DNA from: Natrinema longum
Lineage (GTDB): Archaea > Halobacteriota > Halobacteria > Halobacteriales > Natrialbaceae
DNA length: 64,000 nt
Reading direction: 5' to 3'
NCBI RefSeq assembly: GCF_017352095.1
Contig: NZ_CP071463.1
Location: forward strand, 3,348,001 to 3,412,000
Positions 11,503 through 27,022 of this stretch are shown in pieces. Made by a program: the position numbers and the translations under genes. Numbering within the stretch: the stretch's first letter is position 1; each line of letters starts with the position of its first letter. A model generated the notes under the pieces. It was not told the DNA's origin, searched no databases, and saw only the letters and a program-made list of their open reading frames with translations.

Positions 11503-14500
11503 TGACAGGAGCGGATCAACGAAAACGGGATGCAACGGTTACGATCGCGGAGCGTGGACACGTTCCGTTTGCGGTAATCGCGGTCCTGTTGCTCGTCGTG
11601 AGCGTCGCGACCATCGTGATGCTCGAACGGCGATCCGAACCGAGGATCGACCGCGACGCCGAACTCGTCATGGATCGGACCGAAACCGCAGCACAGGCTG
11701 AATTTCGAGCCGCCGTCCTCGAGGCGACCCATCAGGCCGGTGGGGCACCGATCAACACGACCACTGGAAGCAACGTGGACGGGATTTCGTCCGCGTCAGA
11801 CCAATCCGGGGCGTTTCGTGAGTACGTGAAACTACTGATCTATCTGCGAGCTGTCGAGCGAATACCCGCGGCTGATCAGTCCGTCGGTCCGGATTCTCGC
11901 TCGACGGTTGCTCTGGAGCCAGTCGCTGCCGATCCGGACGACGGAGAACTCAGCCCCGACGAGGCCATCGAGAAGGTCGAACTCGAGATCGGCTCCTTCG
12001 ACGACGACGTCGAACAGGGGACGGTCACCGCGACGATTCACGATGTCGAATTCGGCGGCCACGTCGATGGTGAAGAGCTCCCAGCTGAAACACGATCGAT
12101 CAGCGTCAGCGTCGGAACGCCGGTGTTCGAACTGAACGAGAAGATGAACGAATACGAATCGAAACTCAACAAGGGATTCTTCGAGTCCGAGGAAGACGGG
12201 ATGCCGGACCCGACCACCCTCGACGGGCTCGGGCAGGAGATGGCTGCTCGACAGTATCCGATCGCATACATGAAAGCGAGTTGGAACCGGTTCGGGAACA
12301 AGACGGTAACGCCTGAAGACCACGACTTTACGGAGACGATCGGGACGGACCACACCGAGGTACTCACCAACCACGCGATCTACTCGGTCCAGGAGGACAC
12401 CTTCGGGACGCGCGACCCTGACGCCGATCGAGCGATGCGCCCGCAGTACCTGTGTATGTCACTTGATTTCACGACGACGATCAGCGGCGTCGATCCCGAG
12501 ATCGACATGAACGATGTCGTTCCGAGTAACAATACCACGTTCTCCGAGGACCTCAATGATCACATGGAGCAGCTGAATGAAACCGGTCCCGACGGCGAGA
12601 TGCCGGACAATATGACAATCCCGGTGAACCAAAACGTCAACTTCAGAGAGGAGCTGTGTAACGAAGGCGGGGTTCTCAACGACTGGATCTTCGGCGACGA
12701 GGCAACTGGTGAGCTTCCAGAGGTGCCACCGCTTTCGGAACTGATCAAGGACGGTACCGACAGCATGGGTGTGGCCGAGCAGGAGATCGAACTGCCGGTC
12801 GAGTCGGTCGCCGAAGCCACGTATATCGAGTACAAACTCGAGAGCCCCCGGGATCCCGCCTCGTATCTCGAGGGGAAATCGTCGGACATGAAATCCGACA
12901 TACGGAGCGCAGGAGGTGATGTAGATCACGACGTCTCGAGTAGTCTTCCCATCGAGGAGTCCGAGGAGTACGACGGGAGTGTCCACGACATTCGTGACGA
13001 ACTCTACGAACTGGACATCATAGTCGATCGAGAGGCCACGGCCGGTTCGGTACCGGAACCGGATCCGCCCAGCGGAGACTGGCATCGATCCAGAAGCGAG
13101 GACGAGGAGCGCGTTACCGACATCACCGTCGACAGCGTCTCCCACACCCCGCAACCCGACGGCAAGACGTACGACCGAGAGATTCACAGTATCACGGCTG
13201 ATGCGACGGTCGACGTCGCAGTCACCCGCGGGTACGAGAAAACGGAAAACAACGAAACCGTGACGACGACGGTGACGGAAAGCGACAGCGTCGACGTCGA
13301 CGCAACGGTGACGATCGACGCCGCGTACGGCTTCCGGGCCGGTGGCGTATACTACGAAGCCTACGACGACTTCCAGGTCGAACCGGATCCGATCGCAACC
13401 GACTACGGGACCCACGAAAACGTCACCTTCCGGACCGGCTTCGAGAACGCACTCGTCGAGGTCACGAGCGCGAGTGAGTACAGTACTGCAGAAACCGAGA
13501 TTGCGACCCAACTCGAGTCGGACCTCGGAAACAGTGATCCGAACGCACTCGAGCAGACGGCCAAAGACAGCATCGGGGAAGAGCACGACAGAGTGCTCGA
13601 TTCCAGCGACGTCATTCCGGACGAACGGGAGAGGATCTCCGAAACGCTCGACGAGGAACTCGAGGACGTCCACGAGAACTTCACGGCCGACTGGAAGGCA
13701 GATCCGCTTCGGATCAAGATCAACGAGCTGGCCGACGACGAGTCACCGCCGGAGAAGGTAAAGGAACACATCAAAGCGGAGTACGAGGACGAGTACGTCG
13801 ACGATGGACCCTACGAGACGCCCGAATCGATGGCAAAACAACAGATTCGAAAAGCGTACTTCGATCGGCTCTACTACTGGCTCGAGCAGTTCGACGGCGA
13901 GTACAGCGGCCAGATGGAGGAGTTCAACGACAAAATCGACGACAACACCGAGGGGCAGGTCGACGATTTGAACGAGGTCCTGGGTTACGTGCAGGGACTG
14001 GCGAACGCGGACTACGACCCCGATCCGGCCGACCTCGAGGGGTCGCCGGTTCACGACGACGCCCAGTACGAGATATCGGGATCGCCGACGTATTTGACCG
14101 CGACGGAAGTCGAACGCGACCACGTCTCAGCCGTTCGCGCGAGCAACGAATCGATCATGGACACCGACAGTGACGCCCACCATCACCCGATGGCGATCCA
14201 GACGCACAACCGCGCCCCCTGGCCGGGCATCCCCGCCCTCTTTTACATGCCGGACAAGTGGTACATCACGATTAACTTCTGGCGCGTCGACGTCGCGGGT
14301 GAGTACGCCCGTCTCGAGGTAAGTTCGACGATCGGCGATCCGTCCGACAGCAACCGGTTGACCTACGTCGCCGAGGAGAGCCCCGTCGAAGTCGAACTCT
14401 CCGACGGCTCGAGCGTTCAGGTCGGCAGAAACGAGGCGGTCGACTTCGAGACCGGCACGGAGGTAATCGTGGTTATGCCGGGTGCGATCGTGAAAAAGGG

Positions 14501-14609
14501 TGGGCCGATTCCTGCTGTTGCTGATGGGGATTTTCATTCCCAAGGAACAACCTATTGTACGGAAACTTGGAGGGAGGTTGGGCCAGAAGCAAATACCCAA
14601 TCTTGCTAG
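11499..14609 (+). CDS. Very large pilin-like/extracytoplasmic protein (DUF7286-like?)
   Basis: A 1036-aa acidic protein that starts at the ATG overlapping the upstream stop. After a charged N-terminus, residues of about 23-45 form one hydrophobic segment (HVPFAVIAVLLLVVSVATIV); nearly 1000 exported residues follow, with coiled-coil-prone Glu/Asp stretches around 630-830. Few Cys occur until the end, where two lie in the last 20 residues. The final 40 or so codons shift to AT-rich third positions unlike the rest, running into an AT-rich gap, so the 3' end may be recombinant. It is the last gene of the pilus operon and probably its largest surface component. Confidence 0.78.
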   Translation: MMTGADQRKRDATVTIAERGHVPFAVIAVLLLVVSVATIVMLERRSEPRIDRDAELVMDRTETAAQAEFRAAVLEATHQAGGAPINTTTGSNVDGISSASDQSGAFREYVKLLIYLRAVERIPAADQSVGPDSRSTVALEPVAADPDDGELSPDEAIEKVELEIGSFDDDVEQGTVTATIHDVEFGGHVDGEELPAETRSISVSVGTPVFELNEKMNEYESKLNKGFFESEEDGMPDPTTLDGLGQEMAARQYPIAYMKASWNRFGNKTVTPEDHDFTETIGTDHTEVLTNHAIYSVQEDTFGTRDPDADRAMRPQYLCMSLDFTTTISGVDPEIDMNDVVPSNNTTFSEDLNDHMEQLNETGPDGEMPDNMTIPVNQNVNFREELCNEGGVLNDWIFGDEATGELPEVPPLSELIKDGTDSMGVAEQEIELPVESVAEATYIEYKLESPRDPASYLEGKSSDMKSDIRSAGGDVDHDVSSSLPIEESEEYDGSVHDIRDELYELDIIVDREATAGSVPEPDPPSGDWHRSRSEDEERVTDITVDSVSHTPQPDGKTYDREIHSITADATVDVAVTRGYEKTENNETVTTTVTESDSVDVDATVTIDAAYGFRAGGVYYEAYDDFQVEPDPIATDYGTHENVTFRTGFENALVEVTSASEYSTAETEIATQLESDLGNSDPNALEQTAKDSIGEEHDRVLDSSDVIPDERERISETLDEELEDVHENFTADWKADPLRIKINELADDESPPEKVKEHIKAEYEDEYVDDGPYETPESMAKQQIRKAYFDRLYYWLEQFDGEYSGQMEEFNDKIDDNTEGQVDDLNEVLGYVQGLANADYDPDPADLEGSPVHDDAQYEISGSPTYLTATEVERDHVSAVRASNESIMDTDSDAHHHPMAIQTHNRAPWPGIPALFYMPDKWYITINFWRVDVAGEYARLEVSSTIGDPSDSNRLTYVAEESPVEVELSDGSSVQVGRNEAVDFETGTEVIVVMPGAIVKKGGPIPAVADGDFHSQGTTYCTETWREVGPEANTQSC

Positions 14610-14839
14610 TTTTTCACATTTATGTAATTTTTATAATATATTATATATACTAGAGTAAATTAGTTTGATATTATTAAATAACAGGGCCAAACTCTTCGCT
14701 TTCTATATTAAATCCAAATAACACCTAATAGATCAACATACAACACATACCGAAATACAACTAATGGGGGATTATTTACGTAGATGGTTGAATCCTGCAA
14801 ATGCAAAATATGATTTATTATTTTTGATTTATTTTTAGA
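14610..14839. other. AT-rich convergent intergenic region
   Basis: This stretch is strikingly AT-rich compared with the window, with runs such as AATATATTATATAT near 14635-14650, and lies between two convergent genes. No transposase, terminal repeat or RNA gene was recognised. It probably holds both 3' ends and marks the edge of acquired DNA. Confidence 0.5.
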
Positions 14840-16057
14840 TCAACCATATCCGACTAGTTTGTGTGAATCCTGAACAGAATCCTGCATAATAACTATCATT
14901 TCGTTTAAAACAATCGGAATATGAAAACCTAGTTGTTCTGAAGCCCGTTTTTCCCAGATCATTTCACCAGATTTAGGATCGACTGCAATTAACTTGTGCG
15001 GGTCCGTGACACCAGCGGAATCGATCGTATAGCCCGTCCCATCAGCGACGACGAGCGGTGTATCAGAACTCACTTCGGGATCCCATTCGTTCGGGGGTTC
15101 TCCCGTTTCAAGGTCGTACGCCATCGCGCCCCGTTCTAGATAGGCAGTATTATCGTAAATAGCGGGTCTCGTCCAAGATGACTGATCCAACTCAGTGACT
15201 TTTTGTCGGTTACCATTATCGGAATCTATTGAAATAATCGCGTCATTAGTCACAGTATATACATTCTTATCGATAACTGGGAACGTTTTTGTGAGCCGAT
15301 CATCGCTCCACTGCTCAGCATGAGATATTTCATGATCCCAGCGTCTCTTACCGGATTTTCGATCATAGCCAGCAATTATAAAATCATTTTTGTCTTCATT
15401 TGGCTGGGCCCGAACATAGATATACTTCTCATCAATTGCAAGTGATTGTATTGTTGCAGCAGTTTCGAACTCGAGTTGTTCGTCACCTTTACTGTCTATA
15501 GCGACGACATGATTTCCAATTCCCGCATAGACAATGTCGTCGTAGATCCGTAACGTCTCGACAGAATCATCATGGTCAGTCGTCCAGAGAACATCTGCAT
15601 TCTTGTGATTGAGTGCCTCGATACCATCTCCACTGACAAAGACTGCCGTTTCGGAGACAGCAGGTGTTACCCACCCATCAGATTCGTACTCCCAGACGAT
15701 ACCGCTATCCTCAAGATCGATTGCAGTATACGCGCCACGGCTTTCGCTGACATATGCGGTATCCTCGTAGACAACCGGTGGTAGAATGTCCCCGGGAGAG
15801 TCGAACTCCACCGTCCAGAGTACTTCCGGTTCACCATCGAGACCGCTGTGTGGCACTGACAGTCGGTTTCTCGCATTGTACCGTTCCATCGGCCATGACC
15901 CGTAACTCCCGTCACCCGAGACGACACCGGGATCGTTCTCTGCAGTCGGCGCATCGCCGTCAGTGTTACTGCTACACCCAGCCAGCGCTGCCATCCCAAG
16001 TGACGTACCCGCACACGTGGCGAGCCATCTTCGCCGTGTTCGTCTGTATTCAGCCAT
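14840..16057 (-). CDS. PQQ-type beta-propeller lipoprotein
   Basis: A 405-aa protein from the ATG at 16057, which gives a Tat signal (RRTRRRWLATCAG, about residues 4-16) and a lipobox LAGC with Cys near 27; an upstream in-frame ATG at 16084 would spoil the signal. Seven or so repeats of the form VYVG-IDS-G--W-(Y/F) mark a PQQ/BamB-like eight-bladed propeller, for example IVWEYESDGWVTPAV and MIWEKRAS. It should sit outside the membrane as a lipid-anchored protein. Base composition and codon use are clearly AT-richer than its neighbours, suggesting recent transfer. A TATA-like TTAATTAG (minus strand, about 16084-16093) lies roughly 30 bases upstream. Substrate unknown. Confidence 0.82.
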   Translation of the reverse strand: MAEYRRTRRRWLATCAGTSLGMAALAGCSSNTDGDAPTAENDPGVVSGDGSYGSWPMERYNARNRLSVPHSGLDGEPEVLWTVEFDSPGDILPPVVYEDTAYVSESRGAYTAIDLEDSGIVWEYESDGWVTPAVSETAVFVSGDGIEALNHKNADVLWTTDHDDSVETLRIYDDIVYAGIGNHVVAIDSKGDEQLEFETAATIQSLAIDEKYIYVRAQPNEDKNDFIIAGYDRKSGKRRWDHEISHAEQWSDDRLTKTFPVIDKNVYTVTNDAIISIDSDNGNRQKVTELDQSSWTRPAIYDNTAYLERGAMAYDLETGEPPNEWDPEVSSDTPLVVADGTGYTIDSAGVTDPHKLIAVDPKSGEMIWEKRASEQLGFHIPIVLNEMIVIMQDSVQDSHKLVGYG

Positions 16058-16084
16058 TTGGTTAGTTATAGCTTTCCCTACCAC

Positions 16085-16427
16085 TAATTAATTTTGCTTA
16101 TCATAGAGATAGAAAACTACCGCTCAATCGACCCGCTTCCTCCGTCCGGACGAATCTGCCCGCTCTTGGTTGCGATACGCTCGAGGTCGCGTTCCTCGAG
16201 TACTTCCAACCGGTCGCGGTTCGATCGCACCGAGTCACAGGGGATGCCCGGCCACGAATAGCGCTGGGCCGATTCTATCGAGTCCCGCGAACGAGTTATC
16301 TATGCGTTACTTCGCCGGAGAAATTAAACCAATGTTGTGTATGGGAAACGTAGCTTGTATTAGGGTGGGAGAATATGGTCTCTCTCGTGAGCGTTCGAAC
16401 TAGATGGAATCGGTACGGAGGGAGGCA
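16085..16427. other. Upstream region of the cobalamin operon; no gene seen
   Basis: It contains the promoter of the minus-strand propeller gene and the leader of the cobalamin operon. A weak TATA-like AAATTAAAC lies near 16322-16330. I looked for a cobalamin riboswitch core and did not find it. An open frame from 16170 has poor codon usage and is not called. A GGAGGGAGG purine run at about 16418-16426 precedes the ATG at 16428 and is a plausible ribosome binding site. Confidence 0.4.
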
Positions 16428-17393
16428 ATGAGTTCCGAGACAGACGACGACGGAGGTCACTGTTCGACGGCGGATTCGGACGGCGAAGTCGCCGAGGAGA
16501 TCGCGATCATCTCCTTCGGGCGGAAGATGGACACTGCCGAGGAGATCAAAGCCGAGATCGGCGATCGCTACGAGGCGATCGACATCATCGAGTATCACGG
16601 CGACGTCTTCGAGGAGTACTGGGGCGAGTACGACTGTTTCATCGGCCTGATGGCGTCGGGGATCGCGATGCGGAAGACGGCCCACCTGCTCGACGACAAG
16701 TGGGAAGACCCCGCGATCTGCGTGGTCGACGAGGAGTTGACGTGGGCCATTCCGATCACGGGTGGCCACCACGGCGCGAATCAGGTCGCACAGGACCTGG
16801 CGACGATGGGTGCCGTCCCGGCGATGACCACCGCCTCGGAGGCGGCCGGCAAGCAAGGCGTCGAGTCCCGCGCGAAGGCGATGGACACCCACGTCGTCAA
16901 CGGCGACTCGACTGTCAAGACGAACCTCGCCGTCCTCGACGAGAACCTCGGTCCCGTCGCCCGGCTCGACGGCCCCAAAGCGGTCCTCGTCGACGACGAC
17001 GTGACGGTTCTCAAGCGCAACAAAGCGGACGGCGTCGTGCTCGGTACCGGCAGCGTCTCCGGTGCGAGCAAAGAGGCCTTCCTCGCAGCCTGGGAGGAGG
17101 CCCTCGAGCAAACCGATTACGACGTCGACGACGTCGAGTTCGTCGGGACTGCGACCCGGAAGGAAGACGAAGAAGGGCTGCTCGAGGCGGCTCAGGAACT
17201 CGACCTCGGCGTGGTCGCCTTCGACAAGGAGACCCTGCTCGAACACGAGGGGCCGACGCCCTCGAAGTCGAAGGAGCTGATCGGCTGGCCCGGCGTCTCC
17301 GAGGCCTCCGCGATCGCGGGCGGTTCCGAACAGGAACTGCTCCTCGAGAAGATCAGTTACGAAAACGAGGTCACGGTGGCGATCGGTCGATGA
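16428..17393 (+). CDS. cbiG: Cobalt-precorrin 5A hydrolase CbiG
   Basis: A 321-aa protein from the ATG at 16428, chosen because a purine-rich GGAGG element precedes it; an ATG at 16404 would add eight residues. The N-terminal half carries ISFGRKMDTAEEIKAE and GLMASGIAMR (about 55-85), the central part ITGGHHGAN (about 107-115), and the C-terminal half GTGSVSGASKEAFL and GTATRKEDEEGL, all standard CbiG features. CbiG opens the delta-lactone of cobalt-precorrin 5A and releases acetaldehyde in the anaerobic cobalamin route. The stop overlaps the start of the first CbiH (ATGA at 17390-17393). Confidence 0.93.
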   Translation: MSSETDDDGGHCSTADSDGEVAEEIAIISFGRKMDTAEEIKAEIGDRYEAIDIIEYHGDVFEEYWGEYDCFIGLMASGIAMRKTAHLLDDKWEDPAICVVDEELTWAIPITGGHHGANQVAQDLATMGAVPAMTTASEAAGKQGVESRAKAMDTHVVNGDSTVKTNLAVLDENLGPVARLDGPKAVLVDDDVTVLKRNKADGVVLGTGSVSGASKEAFLAAWEEALEQTDYDVDDVEFVGTATRKEDEEGLLEAAQELDLGVVAFDKETLLEHEGPTPSKSKELIGWPGVSEASAIAGGSEQELLLEKISYENEVTVAIGR

Positions 17394-18298: not shown

Positions 18299-19339
18299 AT
18301 GAGTACGGAGACCAACGCGGACGCTGACGACGAATCGACTTCCAAATGCGGAGCCTCGAGCACGGAGAGCAGTGCCAGCGGGGCGAGCACCGATAGCTCG
18401 AGTAGCTGCGGTGCTTCGGGCAGTACCGACGACTCCAGCGGTTCCAAGTGCGGTGCGAGTTCGTCGAGTTCCTCCTCGTCCTCGAGTAGCTGCGGGGCCT
18501 CGAGTTCCGACGACGGCGGTTCGAACGAGAAGGAGGTCGGCTCGACGGTCGACGACTTCGACGCCGAGCCCGGCAAACTGAGCGCCGTCGGCCTCGGTCC
18601 CGGCCACCCGGAAGGGATGACCGACCGCGCGAAGACGGCGCTGCTCGAGGCCGAGCACATCGTCGGCTACACGACCTACATCGACCTCATTCCGGACGAG
18701 ATCACCGAAGCGGCCGACGAGCTGTACGACACGCCGATGTGTGGCGAAGTGTCGCGAACGGAGGAGGCCATCGACCGCGCGCTGGCGGGTAACGACGTCG
18801 CTATCGTCGGCAGCGGCGACCCCAACGTCTACGCGCTGGGCGGGCTCGCACTCGAGATCCTCGAGTCCAAGGGCGCGACGGCGTCGATGGTCGACTTCGA
18901 GGCCGTGCCGGGCGTCCCGGCGGCCCAGTCCTGTGCGGCTCGGCTGGGTGCCCCCCTCGTGAACGACACCGTCTCGATCTCGCTGTCGGACCACCTCGTC
19001 CCGATGCCGGAAATCGAGTCACGGCTCCACTCTGCGGCCAAGGAGTCCTTCACGATCACGATCTACAACCCGTGGAGCCGCAAGCGCCGGGAGAACTTCG
19101 AGAAGGCCTGCGAGATCCTCCTCGCACATCGCGACGAGGACACGCCCGTCGGCATCGTCCACGGTGCCGGCCGCGAGGACGAACAGGTGATGATCACCGA
19201 ACTCGGCGAACTCGAGGAGCTCGGCGAGAGCGAGATCATCGACATGACGACGACGATCGTCGTCGGCAACGAGGACACCTACGTCTGGGACGACCGGATG
19301 GTCACGCCTCGGGGCTACGAGACGAAGTACGACTACTGA
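18299..19339 (+). CDS. cbiH: Precorrin-3B C17-methyltransferase family protein (CbiH, copy 2) with Cys/Ser-rich N-terminus
   Basis: A 346-aa protein. The first 80 residues are a low-complexity Ser-rich tail with four copies of a (K/S)CGAS motif (Cys near residues 17, 37, 51 and 65). The methylase proper runs from about residue 92: KLSAVGLGPGHPEGMT, GSGDPNVYALGG (about 177-188), VPGVPAAQSCAARLGAPLVND and TTTIVVGNEDTYVWDDRMVTPRGY. The catalytic domain is of normal length. The Cys repeats could bind metal, possibly cobalt, or an Fe-S cluster (inference). It lies between the first CbiH and the ferredoxin gene (8-base gap), which suggests a shared redox or metal step. Confidence 0.88.
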   Translation: MSTETNADADDESTSKCGASSTESSASGASTDSSSSCGASGSTDDSSGSKCGASSSSSSSSSSSCGASSSDDGGSNEKEVGSTVDDFDAEPGKLSAVGLGPGHPEGMTDRAKTALLEAEHIVGYTTYIDLIPDEITEAADELYDTPMCGEVSRTEEAIDRALAGNDVAIVGSGDPNVYALGGLALEILESKGATASMVDFEAVPGVPAAQSCAARLGAPLVNDTVSISLSDHLVPMPEIESRLHSAAKESFTITIYNPWSRKRRENFEKACEILLAHRDEDTPVGIVHGAGREDEQVMITELGELEELGESEIIDMTTTIVVGNEDTYVWDDRMVTPRGYETKYDY

Positions 19340-23287: not shown

Positions 23288-23390
23288 CGCCGTCGATCGG
23301 TCGTTTTCGCGGACGATCCCCGGCGAGTTGGCTAGTCGCATACGCAAGGCCAACCCCCACAACGCTCACGAGCGTCCGTGTTCCCGTATA

Positions 23391-24455
23391 ATGACCGAGA
23401 GTTCTGCACGCGACGGCCGCGAGGTGCGTTCCGATCCGGGGCGGGTCGAACGCTCCTCGAGCCGTCTCGACGAAACCGAGCGGACGACGGGACCGCCACG
23501 CCGGGTGATGACCGACGGCGGACGGGCGGAGATGGCGGAGTCCGACGACCAGCCCGAGGACGCGAGCGACGCCGACGTGGCCCCCGAGGAAGCGGACGCC
23601 GACGCCGAGGAAGGGGTGGCAGACCCTGCCGAAAGCGAGGAGACCCAGGGAGGGGAAGACGAATCCGAAGGCGCAGTCGAAAGCGAAGACGAGGACGAAA
23701 AGGAGGATACCGAGGAAGAAACCGGGGCCACGGAAGGAGAAGACGAAACGGAAGCCGAGGAGGAGGGCGAAGAAGCTGAAACGGAAGAAGAGGACGCCGA
23801 CGGCGAGGAAGACGAGTACCACGTCGAAGACGCCGAAGACGTCTACCAGGACGACGAAACGGCCGGCGTCCTCCACCTCGACCTCGACGGCCTCTTCCTG
23901 GATCTGCTCGGCCTCGAGGTGAACCTGAATCCGGTCACGCTCGACGTCTCGGCACGACCCGGCGGAAACAACCTGCTCGGGAACTTGCTATCGGCAGTCA
24001 CGGGACTTCTCGACGGTCCCAGCGCCCTGCTGGACAAGGTCCAGTCGCTACTGGGCAAGCCAAAAGAGTTGTTCAGGTCCCTGGTTAGCAAGCCAAAAGA
24101 GCTGCTCAGCAACGCGCTTGGAAAGCCCAGAGAGTGGCTCAGTGGACTCTTTGGCGGTGACGCTGGCGAACCGTCGGAGACCGACAAACCGGACGCCGAG
24201 GAAGCGGAACCAGCAGCAGCCGACGACGAGGAAGCGGAACCGAGCGAGGGCGACGAGACGCCGGGTCGCATCTCCAGGGCAGCCAGCTGGCTCAGAGGGA
24301 CGCTGTCCGGGCTCGTTCCCAGCTTCCCGACCGAGGAGATCGTGGCGATGATCGTCAGCGAAGTGATCGAACAGCTAATCGAACGACTCGAGCCGGATCG
24401 TGAGGAAGAGGCCGGCGGACAGGCGGAGCCGTCACAGGCGGAGGCATCATCATGA
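23391..24455 (+). CDS. Acidic protein 1: LLG-x-VNL motif and three 11-residue amphipathic repeats
   Basis: A 354-aa protein; starts at 23508 or 23532 are also possible. Residues 48-155 are a low-complexity Glu/Asp tract. A hydrophobic block at about 160-215 reads LDLDGLFLDLLGLEVNLNPV and then GNNLLGNLLSAVTGLLDG, a motif I recall from many uncharacterised bacterial and haloarchaeal proteins. Then follow three tandem 11-mers (KPKELFRSLVS, KPKELLSNALG, KPREWLSGLFG) at 223-255, an amphipathic pattern like lipid-surface proteins. A second acidic linker and a helical C-terminal segment (about 290-345) end the protein. No signal peptide. It overlaps the next gene by 4 bases. Function unknown. Confidence 0.72.
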   Translation: MTESSARDGREVRSDPGRVERSSSRLDETERTTGPPRRVMTDGGRAEMAESDDQPEDASDADVAPEEADADAEEGVADPAESEETQGGEDESEGAVESEDEDEKEDTEEETGATEGEDETEAEEEGEEAETEEEDADGEEDEYHVEDAEDVYQDDETAGVLHLDLDGLFLDLLGLEVNLNPVTLDVSARPGGNNLLGNLLSAVTGLLDGPSALLDKVQSLLGKPKELFRSLVSKPKELLSNALGKPREWLSGLFGGDAGEPSETDKPDAEEAEPAAADDEEAEPSEGDETPGRISRAASWLRGTLSGLVPSFPTEEIVAMIVSEVIEQLIERLEPDREEEAGGQAEPSQAEASS

Positions 24456-24901
24456 GCGACGATTCAATCACACAGCGGATCGATACCGAAAAGATCACCG
24501 AAAACGTCGACGTCGACGAACTGGTCGAGGGCACCCAGTGGGAAGAGGAGATCGACGGGGACAAACCTCTCGGAGAGGCGCTTGGCGGACAGATCGGCGC
24601 GATTCTCGGACGAGCGATCGGCGAATCCCTCGGGCGAACGATCGGGAATATGGTCGTCGACGAACTCCTCAGTTCCGGCGACGAGGACGAGGAGGAAGGC
24701 GAGGAGGCCGCCGAGGAAGGCGAGGAAACGACTGAGGAAGGCGAGGGAGCGGACGAAGAGGCTACCGAAGCGGACGAGCCCGAGACCGAAGGGGACGACG
24801 AGAGCGGCGAAGGTGAGGCCCAAGACGACTCCCAACCGGGCGAGGAAGGCGAAGCATCGGCGGACGAAGAATCGGAGCAGGCGTCCGACGCCGAGGAGTA
24901 A
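24452..24901 (+). CDS. Acidic protein 2: regular glycine-zipper protein
   Basis: A 149-aa protein. Gly occurs at every fourth position from 41 to 65 (41, 45, 49, 53, 57, 61, 65) within LGEALGGQIGAILGRAIGES and the residues that follow, a textbook GxxxG zipper that packs helices tightly, often in or on membranes. Residues 77-149 are almost pure Glu/Asp/Gly/Ala low complexity. The start ATG overlaps the stop of acidic protein 1 (ATGA at 24452-24455), so the two are coupled. Function unknown; membrane-curving, pore-like or granule-coating roles all fit the pattern. Confidence 0.72.
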   Translation: MSDDSITQRIDTEKITENVDVDELVEGTQWEEEIDGDKPLGEALGGQIGAILGRAIGESLGRTIGNMVVDELLSSGDEDEEEGEEAAEEGEETTEEGEGADEEATEADEPETEGDDESGEGEAQDDSQPGEEGEASADEESEQASDAEE

Positions 24902-24945
24902 CACCGTGATGCAGCACACGCTCTCGCTCGACGACCCGGCTCGAG

Positions 24946-25713
24946 GTGGTTGCCGTGAGTGACGGATCCGGACTGAAGGGGATGGTGGCCAACGAGGTGA
25001 GCAATCAACTCGACGTCACCGATATGCTCGGCGACGGGCCTATCGAGGACAGCATCGACGGCGGCGAGGTCGGCGCAGCGGTCGGTCGACAGTTCGGCGA
25101 ACAGTTCGGCCGCGAGGTCGGGGCGGCGGTCGGCCGAGAAGTCCACGAGACGATCGCCGAAGGCGTCGACGAGGGGAAAGGACTCGGCGAGATCAGAACC
25201 GAAGTATCGGCGGCGATTCGGGACGCTCTCGAGGACTCGGTCTCGGAGATCACGGGTCGCGATTCGCTCGAGTCGGTAGCCAGGAGTGTGACCGACGGCA
25301 ACAGCGTCGAGGGACTTCTCGATAGCATCGGGGGCGACGGACGCGACGAACCTACGGAAGACGAGTCGGAGAGCGATTCGCAGGCGGCACCCGAGGAGGA
25401 CGTGTCCGAGAGCGACGCCGACGGTGAAGACGAGACGGCTGCAGCCGAGCAGGAAGCGACGGAAGCCGAGGCGTCCGACGAGGCCGAGGCGGAGCCGTCG
25501 ATGGACGACCTCGAGGGCCTCAGGACGGACACCCTCGAGGACTTCCTCGGGGTGATGTCCTACAGCGACTTGCAGTCGGTCGCGAAGGACGTCGGCGTGA
25601 AGGCGAACCTCAGCCGGGAGGAGATGACCGAGGCGATCATCGGTGCAGTGATCGACGAGGAGGGCGACGACGACTCGGACTCGGAGTCAGAAGCCGAGGC
25701 AACAGCCGAGTAG
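24946..25713 (+). CDS. Acidic protein 3: glycine zipper plus SAP/HeH-like C-terminal module
   Basis: A 255-aa protein with a GTG start at 24946 (an in-frame GTG at 24955 is also possible). Gly appears every four residues from 43 to 63 (VGAAVGRQFGEQFGREVGAA), matching the neighbour's zipper. Residues 80-115 continue as amphipathic helix; 125-185 is acidic low complexity. The C-terminus (about 187-238) has SYSDLQSVAKDVGVKANLSR and a following TEAII helix, close to SAP/HeH or Rho-N-like helix-extension-helix modules that bind nucleic acid. This joins a membrane-type zipper to a possible DNA- or RNA-binding tail. Function unknown. Confidence 0.7.
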   Translation: MVAVSDGSGLKGMVANEVSNQLDVTDMLGDGPIEDSIDGGEVGAAVGRQFGEQFGREVGAAVGREVHETIAEGVDEGKGLGEIRTEVSAAIRDALEDSVSEITGRDSLESVARSVTDGNSVEGLLDSIGGDGRDEPTEDESESDSQAAPEEDVSESDADGEDETAAAEQEATEAEASDEAEAEPSMDDLEGLRTDTLEDFLGVMSYSDLQSVAKDVGVKANLSREEMTEAIIGAVIDEEGDDDSDSESEAEATAE

Positions 25714-25783
25714 TCGACCGACAGGTCCCTCCCCATCACGGGTAGCGGGACCGACGCTGGTGTAGTCATACCACGAGACAGCT

Positions 25784-26617
25784 ATGAACGACTCACGACT
25801 ACGGGATCGAGTGGACGAGGTGTTGAACCGGGCCGCCGCGTCGAGCAACTCGATCGTCGCCGACGACGGCTCGGCTGGCGAGGACGAGGCTCCCGAGATG
25901 ACCCTGCTCGAGACCGCCCAGGAAGCAAACGAGCTACTCGAAACCGCCGACCCCGCCGACCTGCTCGCCGCGGTGGGACTGGACACGCTCGCGGACGGAA
26001 CCGAACCGGCGTCGATTCCGGAGGCCATCGCACGGGGCGACCAGGAGACCCTCGAGGACCTGCAGCGGTTGCTCCACCTCGCGAAACTTGCCGGCCGGGC
26101 GGACGACGGGACTCTCGATGCGACCGCCGACGGCCTTCGGGAGACGATCGGTGACCGGGAGGAATCCGCGAAGCCGGACGCGGACACCACAGCGGATGCG
26201 GACACGGAGGCAACCGGAGGCGACACGGCGGACGAGACGTCCGACGACCTCGGGGATCGACTCCGCTCGTCGATGCGGTCCTCCTTCGAGCAGTTCGGCG
26301 GCGATGTCGCACAACTCAGAGAGCGACTCGAATCCGCGAGTGACGGGACCGCCCGCAGCGACGCGTCGGCGGCCGACGAGACGGCTATCGACGCTGGGTC
26401 CGCGGACGAGGGTGGGACCGAAGAAGCGGCGCATAAAGCGGAAGCGACGGACGAGGAGGCAGACGAGGGTGTTCTCGGATCGGGGCTCGGCGGTGACCGG
26501 ACTCGCGGAACGTCGGGCGGTGCGAGTCGCCATTCGACGATGCCACCGCCCCCGTCCGAACGGGCGGACATGCGCGGAGTCACGCGTCACTCGACGATGC
26601 CGGACAAGCACGGCTAG
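25784..26617 (+). CDS. Acidic protein 4 with duplicated RHSTMP tail motif
   Basis: A 277-aa acidic, mostly helical protein. Residues 40-135 contain several short amphipathic helices (for example LLETAQEANELLETADPADL and LEDLQRLLHLAKLAGRAD). Around 165-186 a helix RSSMRSSFEQFGGDVAQLRE is phasin-like in appearance. The last 30 residues are basic and carry (S/T)RHSTMP twice (near 248 and 268), ending four residues after the second copy. It ends in a TAG after which the same frame continues coding-like for 134 codons. It follows acidic protein 3 by 70 bases. Function unknown. Confidence 0.7.
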   Translation: MNDSRLRDRVDEVLNRAAASSNSIVADDGSAGEDEAPEMTLLETAQEANELLETADPADLLAAVGLDTLADGTEPASIPEAIARGDQETLEDLQRLLHLAKLAGRADDGTLDATADGLRETIGDREESAKPDADTTADADTEATGGDTADETSDDLGDRLRSSMRSSFEQFGGDVAQLRERLESASDGTARSDASAADETAIDAGSADEGGTEEAAHKAEATDEEADEGVLGSGLGGDRTRGTSGGASRHSTMPPPPSERADMRGVTRHSTMPDKHG

Positions 26618-27022
26618 CCGATCGGCTCGCCCTCGAGCGAGGTCGAACTCTCACCGTTTCCGGTCCACGTCATCGAGGAAGACGAGTTCGGGCCGGTTCG
26701 AATCGTCGGTCGAAGCGGATTCGACACCGAACGAGTCAGAACCTCGCTTCGCGACGATCAGCGACGCGGCGAGTTACTCGAATGCGTCGGCCCGATGCCG
26801 GCGGCGACGCCGGGATTCTACACGTTCCTCGACGAGGACGGCGCGTCCTGCCAGTTGCGCGAGGCGGAGACGGGACAGGTGGAGTATCGGATCTATCCCG
26901 ACGGTGTCACCCAACAGGTACTGATGGACGGGAGCATGGCGATCGCGACGAGTATGCGGTACGTCCAGCACGTCGTGGTCGCGGTGGCGCGTAACCGGAT
27001 CTCATTACGCGTTCGCCCGTAG
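26618..27022 (+). pseudogene. Start-less open frame continuing acidic protein 4 past a TAG codon
   Basis: In the same frame as acidic protein 4, right after its TAG (26615-26617), 134 sense codons follow with typical haloarchaeal codon use and protein-like content (ELSPFPVHVIEEDEFGPVRI and onward), ending at TAG 27020-27022. No ATG, GTG or TTG occurs before the ATG at 26795, which would give only 75 aa and discard a convincing N-terminal half. Explanations: a fused gene interrupted by an amber mutation, stop-codon readthrough, an unusual start (ATC at 26621), or a sequencing error. The protein has one Cys in each half and a small beta-rich look. Not recognised. Confidence 0.5.

Follow-up and report, generated by a model that had tools for sequence, protein, structure and literature searches.

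Gas vesicles are protein balloons that let cells float, and the haloarchaeal gene sets that encode them are viewed as one compact cluster of 11 to 14 gvp genes, with GvpC as the protein that strengthens the shell. In Halobacterium, GvpI binds GvpH, GvpF and GvpL, and its loss leads to very long vesicles (PMC7688916), and a long GvpI with an N-terminal extension is known from Natrialba magadii and Haloterrigena turkmenica (PMC3403918). We describe here four acidic genes, P1 to P4, in a stretch of 64,000 nucleotides of the Natrinema longum genome (contig NZ_CP071463.1, positions 3,348,001 to 3,412,000; hereafter the window). Judging from sequence comparisons, they almost certainly form a gas-vesicle module, because they are lost together with gvpA, because in six families gvp genes are their neighbours, and because P4 belongs to the GvpI family. 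That they are, more fully, an unlinked accessory module of the gvpC-less haloarchaeal gas-vesicle system is likely. The four-gene module is new to this system, and P1 to P4 are unmentioned in the open-licence literature that we searched.

The four genes follow one another in the same orientation from position 23391 to position 26617 of the window, 3' of a conserved beta-propeller gene, where the cobalamin-synthesis region ends:

23391..24455, plus strand: P1, 354 amino acids (aa), with a start backed by orthologues
24452..24901, plus strand: P2, 149 aa, with a conserved N-terminus, a glycine-zipper helix (24572-24646) and an acidic tail
24946..25713, plus strand: P3, 255 aa, with a GTG start, a glycine-zipper helix (25060-25170), an acidic linker and a SAP-like C-terminal domain (25501-25668)
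25784..26617, plus strand: P4, 277 aa, with an N-terminal helical region (25784-26173), an acidic linker and a tail with two HSTMP motifs (26528-26614)

The first two are coupled by a 4-base overlap (23391-24455 and 24452-24901), as read in a preliminary description of this DNA. Of the four or five acidic proteins that this description counted, four come from real and conserved genes, but the fifth is a truncated remnant and is not acidic. Aspartate and glutamate together represent 30%, 39%, 29% and 24% of P1, P2, P3 and P4, respectively, against a median of 19.6% and a 95th percentile of 27% for the called proteins of the window; acidity is extreme for P1 to P3 and lesser for P4, and the isoelectric points of the four are about 4.1. 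Scans of P1 to P4 against Pfam and NCBIfam gave no match above cut-off, and the profiles of P1 and P3 found no credible match among the sequences of the Protein Data Bank. Relatives of P1 and P4 are absent from the plasmid and viral collections, the plasmid search being one that filters low-complexity sequence.

The search of haloarchaeal genomes and the comparison of gene order recommended in the preliminary description were both run. In a class-wide sample of 391 haloarchaeal genomes, P1 is present in 130, while GvpA-type genes (PF00741) are present in 162, including all of the 130 P1-positive ones (Fisher p 2e-73 class-wide, uncorrected for kinship). The P4 model matches 129 of the 391 genomes, a figure that includes some true GvpI genes. 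Within the family of the window, P1 is found in 88 of 91 gvpA-positive genomes versus 0 of 10 gvpA-negative ones (p 1e-11, likewise not corrected for kinship), and none of the 20 gvpA-negative genomes tested with a wider P1 model was positive. This connection is also a physical one. Indeed, P1 is located at 5 kilobases (kb) or less from a gvpA-type gene in 19 genomes from six families, and the gene neighbourhoods of twenty diverse loci revealed, in several families, homologues of P1 to P3 inside gas-vesicle clusters or adjoining them. At L076, L077 and L115, P1-P2-P3-P4 adjoin gvpO-gvpA and gvpF-M. The Natrialbaceae module is, for the most part, not linked to gvp; the genome of the window has two gvp clusters, of which the nearer, with its own GvpI, is about 455 kb away from it. 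Genomes in which these genes never occur together would, according to the preliminary description, have spoken against its proposal, and P1 to P4 do co-occur in several families.

When one genome per species was scanned, eight loci were recovered in Natrinema and Natronorubrum, and the order cbiX - DUF3209 - propeller - P1 - P2 - P3 - P4 is kept in 8 of 8. The N-terminal motif and the hydrophobic core of P1, the zippers of P2 and P3, the SAP-like tail of P3 and the RHSTMP tail of P4 are conserved, while the acidic tracts differ in length and sequence between orthologues. A further conserved element precedes the first gene:

23337..23360, plus strand: conserved block CGCAYACGCAAGGNNAAYNNCCAC, 24 bases, about 50 bases 5' of the P1 start, a candidate promoter

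This block is near-invariant across nine orthologous upstream regions, the flanks of which diverge, and it has a single exact match genome-wide. A promoter common to the module and gvpA was sought and not found.

Three Natrinema genomes (G027, G091 and G307) are devoid of gvpA. At their propeller locus, P1 to P4 are gone in G307 and G027, and only remnants of P1 and P3 persist in G091, while the propeller gene, DUF3209 and cbiX are retained in all three; the adjacent propeller gene constitutes a built-in control. In a tree of cbiX and the propeller gene, the three genomes are not sisters and three separate losses are required; a single loss is found in 0 of 200 bootstrap trees, and the well-supported branches force two or more. 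A fourth genome, that of G192, combines a truncated P1 with a gvpN that carries an internal deletion. These results bear on another explanation, according to which the module was recruited to some other particle or function, its co-occurrence with gvp coming from common ancestry and from joint loss upon a change of lifestyle. The members of these genera that are reported without gas vesicles (PMC4390858) and the mostly unlinked Natrialbaceae module, with its own conserved promoter block, would be in line with such a recruitment, but it is made quite unlikely by three independent joint losses within a single genus that retained the neighbour gene, by the lack of P1 in the 20 gvpA-negative genomes tested with the wider model and by the linkage to gvp in six families. 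A role in cobalamin synthesis, considered in view of the neighbouring cbi genes, was dropped since the module of other families has other neighbours, and since the gvpA-negative Natrinema lose the module and keep the neighbours.

P4 is connected to the known Gvp proteins by its sequence. Its model also matches the protein found at the position of gvpI in clusters of the order gvpF-G-H-[P4-like]-J-K-L-M, and the alignment of P4 with the gvpI-position proteins by hhalign, which covers most of the length, has a probability of 99.4 and an E-value of 3e-21. Tandem R-[HY]-S-T-[MV]-P motifs and then R-I-Y-G-R-R-F form the end of the gvpI-position proteins. The repeated R-[HY]-S-T-[MV]-P tail is found in P4 as well, as is the N-terminal helical region of the long GvpI; the long GvpI seen here agrees with the extended one of Natrialba magadii. 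The HST[MV]P motif occurs in 35 copies in 41 GvpI/P4 proteins and is not found once in the 196,290 residues of the other called proteins, and the GvpI of the gvpC-type clusters has the same tail motif as P4. The basic RHSTMP tail that had been spotted in one of the proteins is that of P4, and it is almost invariant among orthologues. However, P4 differs from GvpI in several respects: it does not have the terminal RIYGRRF/RLYG, [RH]-[LI]-Y-G-x-R being present in 23 of 23 gvpI-position proteins; it is not basic; its gene lies here outside gvpFGHIJKLM and not between gvpH and gvpJ; and it coexists with a separate GvpI gene in gvp cluster II. Because of the missing C-terminal [RH]-[LI]-Y-G-x-R motif, we filed P4 as a paralogue of GvpI and not as GvpI itself, and it is highly probable that it represents an acidic second member of this family. 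By analogy with GvpI, P4 plausibly acts in assembly and length control.

P1 is made of an N-terminal motif, a long Glu/Asp tract, a hydrophobic core, amphipathic repeats, an acidic stretch and a C-terminal amphipathic helix, in this order, and the following parts were delimited:

23499..23522, plus strand: N-terminal motif RRVMTDGG of P1, with the family consensus R-x-L-[TP]-D-G-G-E
23811..24017, plus strand: core domain of P1, HLDLDGLFLDLLGLEVNLNPVTLDVSARPG..NLLGNLLSAVTGLLD, the portion conserved between families
24048..24146, plus strand: three 11-residue amphipathic repeats in P1, x-L-x-K-P-[KR]-E-x-L-x-x

The N-terminal motif is shared with GvpO, in the sense that the GvpO proteins of L077 and L115 also have L-L-T-D-G-G-E close to their N-terminus, and that of L076 has RRVVRTDGG, but there is no homology outside this motif. 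The 11-residue repeat, first pointed out as part of a design common to the cluster, is non-random in P1 here (at a period of 11, 13 matches out of 40, with a P of about 0.0005 when periods 7-15 are considered), but it is a trait limited to the P1 of Natrinema and Natronorubrum, the P1 of other families having either none or different amphipathic helices. Amphipathic 11-residue repeats combined with acidic tails are a general surface-coat design, which would also suit a phasin-like coat of carbon-storage (polyhydroxyalkanoate) granules; this is of negligible likelihood, considering that no phasin family was matched in the Pfam and NCBIfam scans, that the neighbours and the co-occurrence indicate gvp, and that the P1 of other families is devoid of these repeats. 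In L081 and L082, a P2-like zipper is fused to the C-terminus of P1, which suggests that P1 and P2 act together. The P1 homologues of L081, L082 and L086 (589-782 aa, two families) also carry, before the core, repeated segments that are Ig-like or carboxypeptidase-regulatory-like (xxLTVxVEDxxGxPVxGAxVTV). Some gvpA-positive genomes also encode a second, more distant protein of about 210-280 aa that has the P1 core domain (G254:C1:2187870, G247:C13:488811, G336:C2:238696, G358:C4:30926, G256:C2:335305 and G351:C1:923653).

P2 and P3 are the two proteins in which a glycine zipper had been noticed, and both zippers are kept in 9 of 9 orthologues. The AlphaFold model of P3 consists of a long zipper helix and of the SAP-like tail that the preliminary description had also recognized, with a predicted local distance difference test (pLDDT) value of about 90 over residues 190-240. 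In Foldseek, SAP domains are the best matches to this tail (1-2 Å over about 42 residues), but with E-values above 1. Such a similarity in predicted helical fold to DEK, PIAS1, Tho1 and the N-terminal region of Rho, at an E-value that is not significant, is what would favor a nucleoid or DNA-tethering assembly. However, a SAP-like tail need not imply DNA binding, since the GvpC of the same genome has a similar tail (hhalign probability 56, suggestive only), and since, in Halobacterium, several Gvp proteins are binding partners of the C-terminal part of GvpC (PMC9372576). The context of P3 is moreover very acidic, and a DNA-tethering assembly appears highly improbable. The P3 tail has no similarity to GvpO. 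The GvpC of Natrialbaceae (L101:2655-3677, L107:10684-11934) ends in a SAP-like tail, QYxKLKxAANxxGYDGNLNAAxKDELV. In family f6, the gvp cluster of two gvpA-positive genomes holds a second GvpO-like gene and a weakly P2/P3-like protein, placed divergently (L112:7756-8880, L116:9613-10554).

The relation of the module to GvpC is that of a near exclusion. A GvpC model matches 15 of the 32 P1-negative gvpA-positive genomes versus only 1 of the 128 P1-positive genomes tested (p 2e-11). The sole P1-positive genome with GvpC is that of the window, in which one of the two gvp clusters has gvpA-C-N-O and gvpF-M with a short canonical GvpI, and the other is without gvpC and has a long GvpI; its close relative G202 only has a gvpC-less cluster. 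The gvp regions of the window's genome are L100, L101 (G000:C1:2314000-2340000) and L102 (2904000-2923000). A replacement of GvpN by the module was considered as well and dropped, as gvp cluster II here holds a GvpN variant. Like GvpC, P1 combines amphipathic helical repeats with an acidic part, it is found where GvpC is absent, and the P3 tail resembles the GvpC tail of the same genome; unlike GvpC, P1 has no detectable homology to it and no repeats of 32-40 residues, and its gene is distant from gvpA in most genomes.

P1 is therefore an attractive candidate for a shell coat in place of GvpC, and we tentatively consider that P1, or P1 to P3, may take over the shell role of GvpC. P1, in which a string of amphipathic helices is borne by an acidic solubilizing tail, would coat or shape the growing GvpA shell. 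P2 and P3 would be adaptors that self-assemble through their glycine-zipper helices, P3 bringing a SAP-like domain that resembles the GvpC tail of its own genome, and P4 would dock through its HSTMP tail on the GvpH/GvpF/GvpL assembly complex, in the fashion of GvpI, and help set vesicle length. In such a second reinforcement architecture, GvpC would give way to an unlinked P1-P4 coat in roughly one third of haloarchaeal species; P1 would bind the GvpA shell, and P2, P3 and P4 would connect the coat to the assembly complex. This architecture is possible without being probable. It is also conceivable, though short of likely, that P1 to P4 are only assembly or nucleation factors that aid GvpI, GvpN and GvpO, outside the finished shell and unrelated to GvpC. 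Indeed, P4 is a paralogue of GvpI, which is a length-setting assembly factor (PMC7688916), the N-terminal motif of P1 recurs in GvpO, and 17 gvpA-positive genomes have neither P1 nor GvpC; on the other hand, the near exclusivity of P1 and GvpC, the amphipathic helix string of P1 and the weakly GvpC-like tail of P3 speak against it.

Several observations weigh against P1 to P4 being the accessory module of gvpC-less clusters. The co-occurrence counts are uncorrected for kinship, except for the Natrinema tree, and the exclusivity of P1 and GvpC may in part mark two vertically inherited cluster types. The 17 genomes mentioned above mean that P1 is no obligatory companion of gvpC-less clusters. 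The GvpC model, which matched 16 genomes, detects none of P1 to P4 in P1-positive genomes, the CGCAYACGCAAGGNNAAYNNCCAC block was not found at gvp clusters, and AlphaFold renders P1 as a helix string without a confident fold (pLDDT 56). Finally, Natrinema pellirubrum and others were described with clusters without gvpC and gvpDE that are sufficient for vesicles, and yet form none (PMC4390858), so that the system may be silent in such species; the table of a later review gives gvpACNO for the same species (PMC9501494).

The preliminary description had envisaged an intracellular surface-coating, granule, membrane-remodelling or DNA-tethering assembly. The idea of a surface coat or assembly went in the right direction, the particle being very probably the gas vesicle, but its granule, membrane-remodelling and DNA-tethering versions are unsupported. 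It recognized no described system, and P1 to P3 and the four-gene set are indeed unnamed in the libraries and papers searched; the gas vesicle, however, is a described one. A kinship with gas-vesicle accessory proteins, named there as the outcome that would overturn the proposal, is what emerged, through homology to GvpI for P4 and through gene order and co-occurrence for P1 to P3.

The supposed fifth gene of the cluster is the following:

26618..27022, plus strand: 5'-truncated remnant of a DUF2299-like gene, outside the module

This frame directly abuts the stop codon of P4, has no start codon before 26795 and is not acidic. The intact gene of relatives encodes about 155 aa (L001:8915-9373, L003, L006, L008), with a DUF2299 match below cut-off, and its first 40 codons or so are missing here. 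Several genomes that bear P1 to P4 either lack this gene or hold a broken copy, and it decays in several Natrinema independently of P1 to P4; being the remnant of an unrelated gene, it was dropped from the module. Elsewhere in the window, 18299-19339 encodes a CbiH/CobJ-like protein with a Ser-rich N-terminal tract with repeated CGAS motifs, and the G+C content dips locally to 0.49-0.55, versus about 0.65, at 13000-16500, possibly a mobile island.

Gas vesicles have been engineered into ultrasound reporters and antigen carriers, and a second set of shell-associated proteins, if true, would be useful for such engineering. For the haloarchaea themselves, four additional genes that are invisible to Pfam and NCBIfam, and mostly unlinked, track gvpA across roughly one third of the sampled species. 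The gvpC-less clusters may need P1 to P4, and moving a gvp cluster alone to another host would leave them behind.

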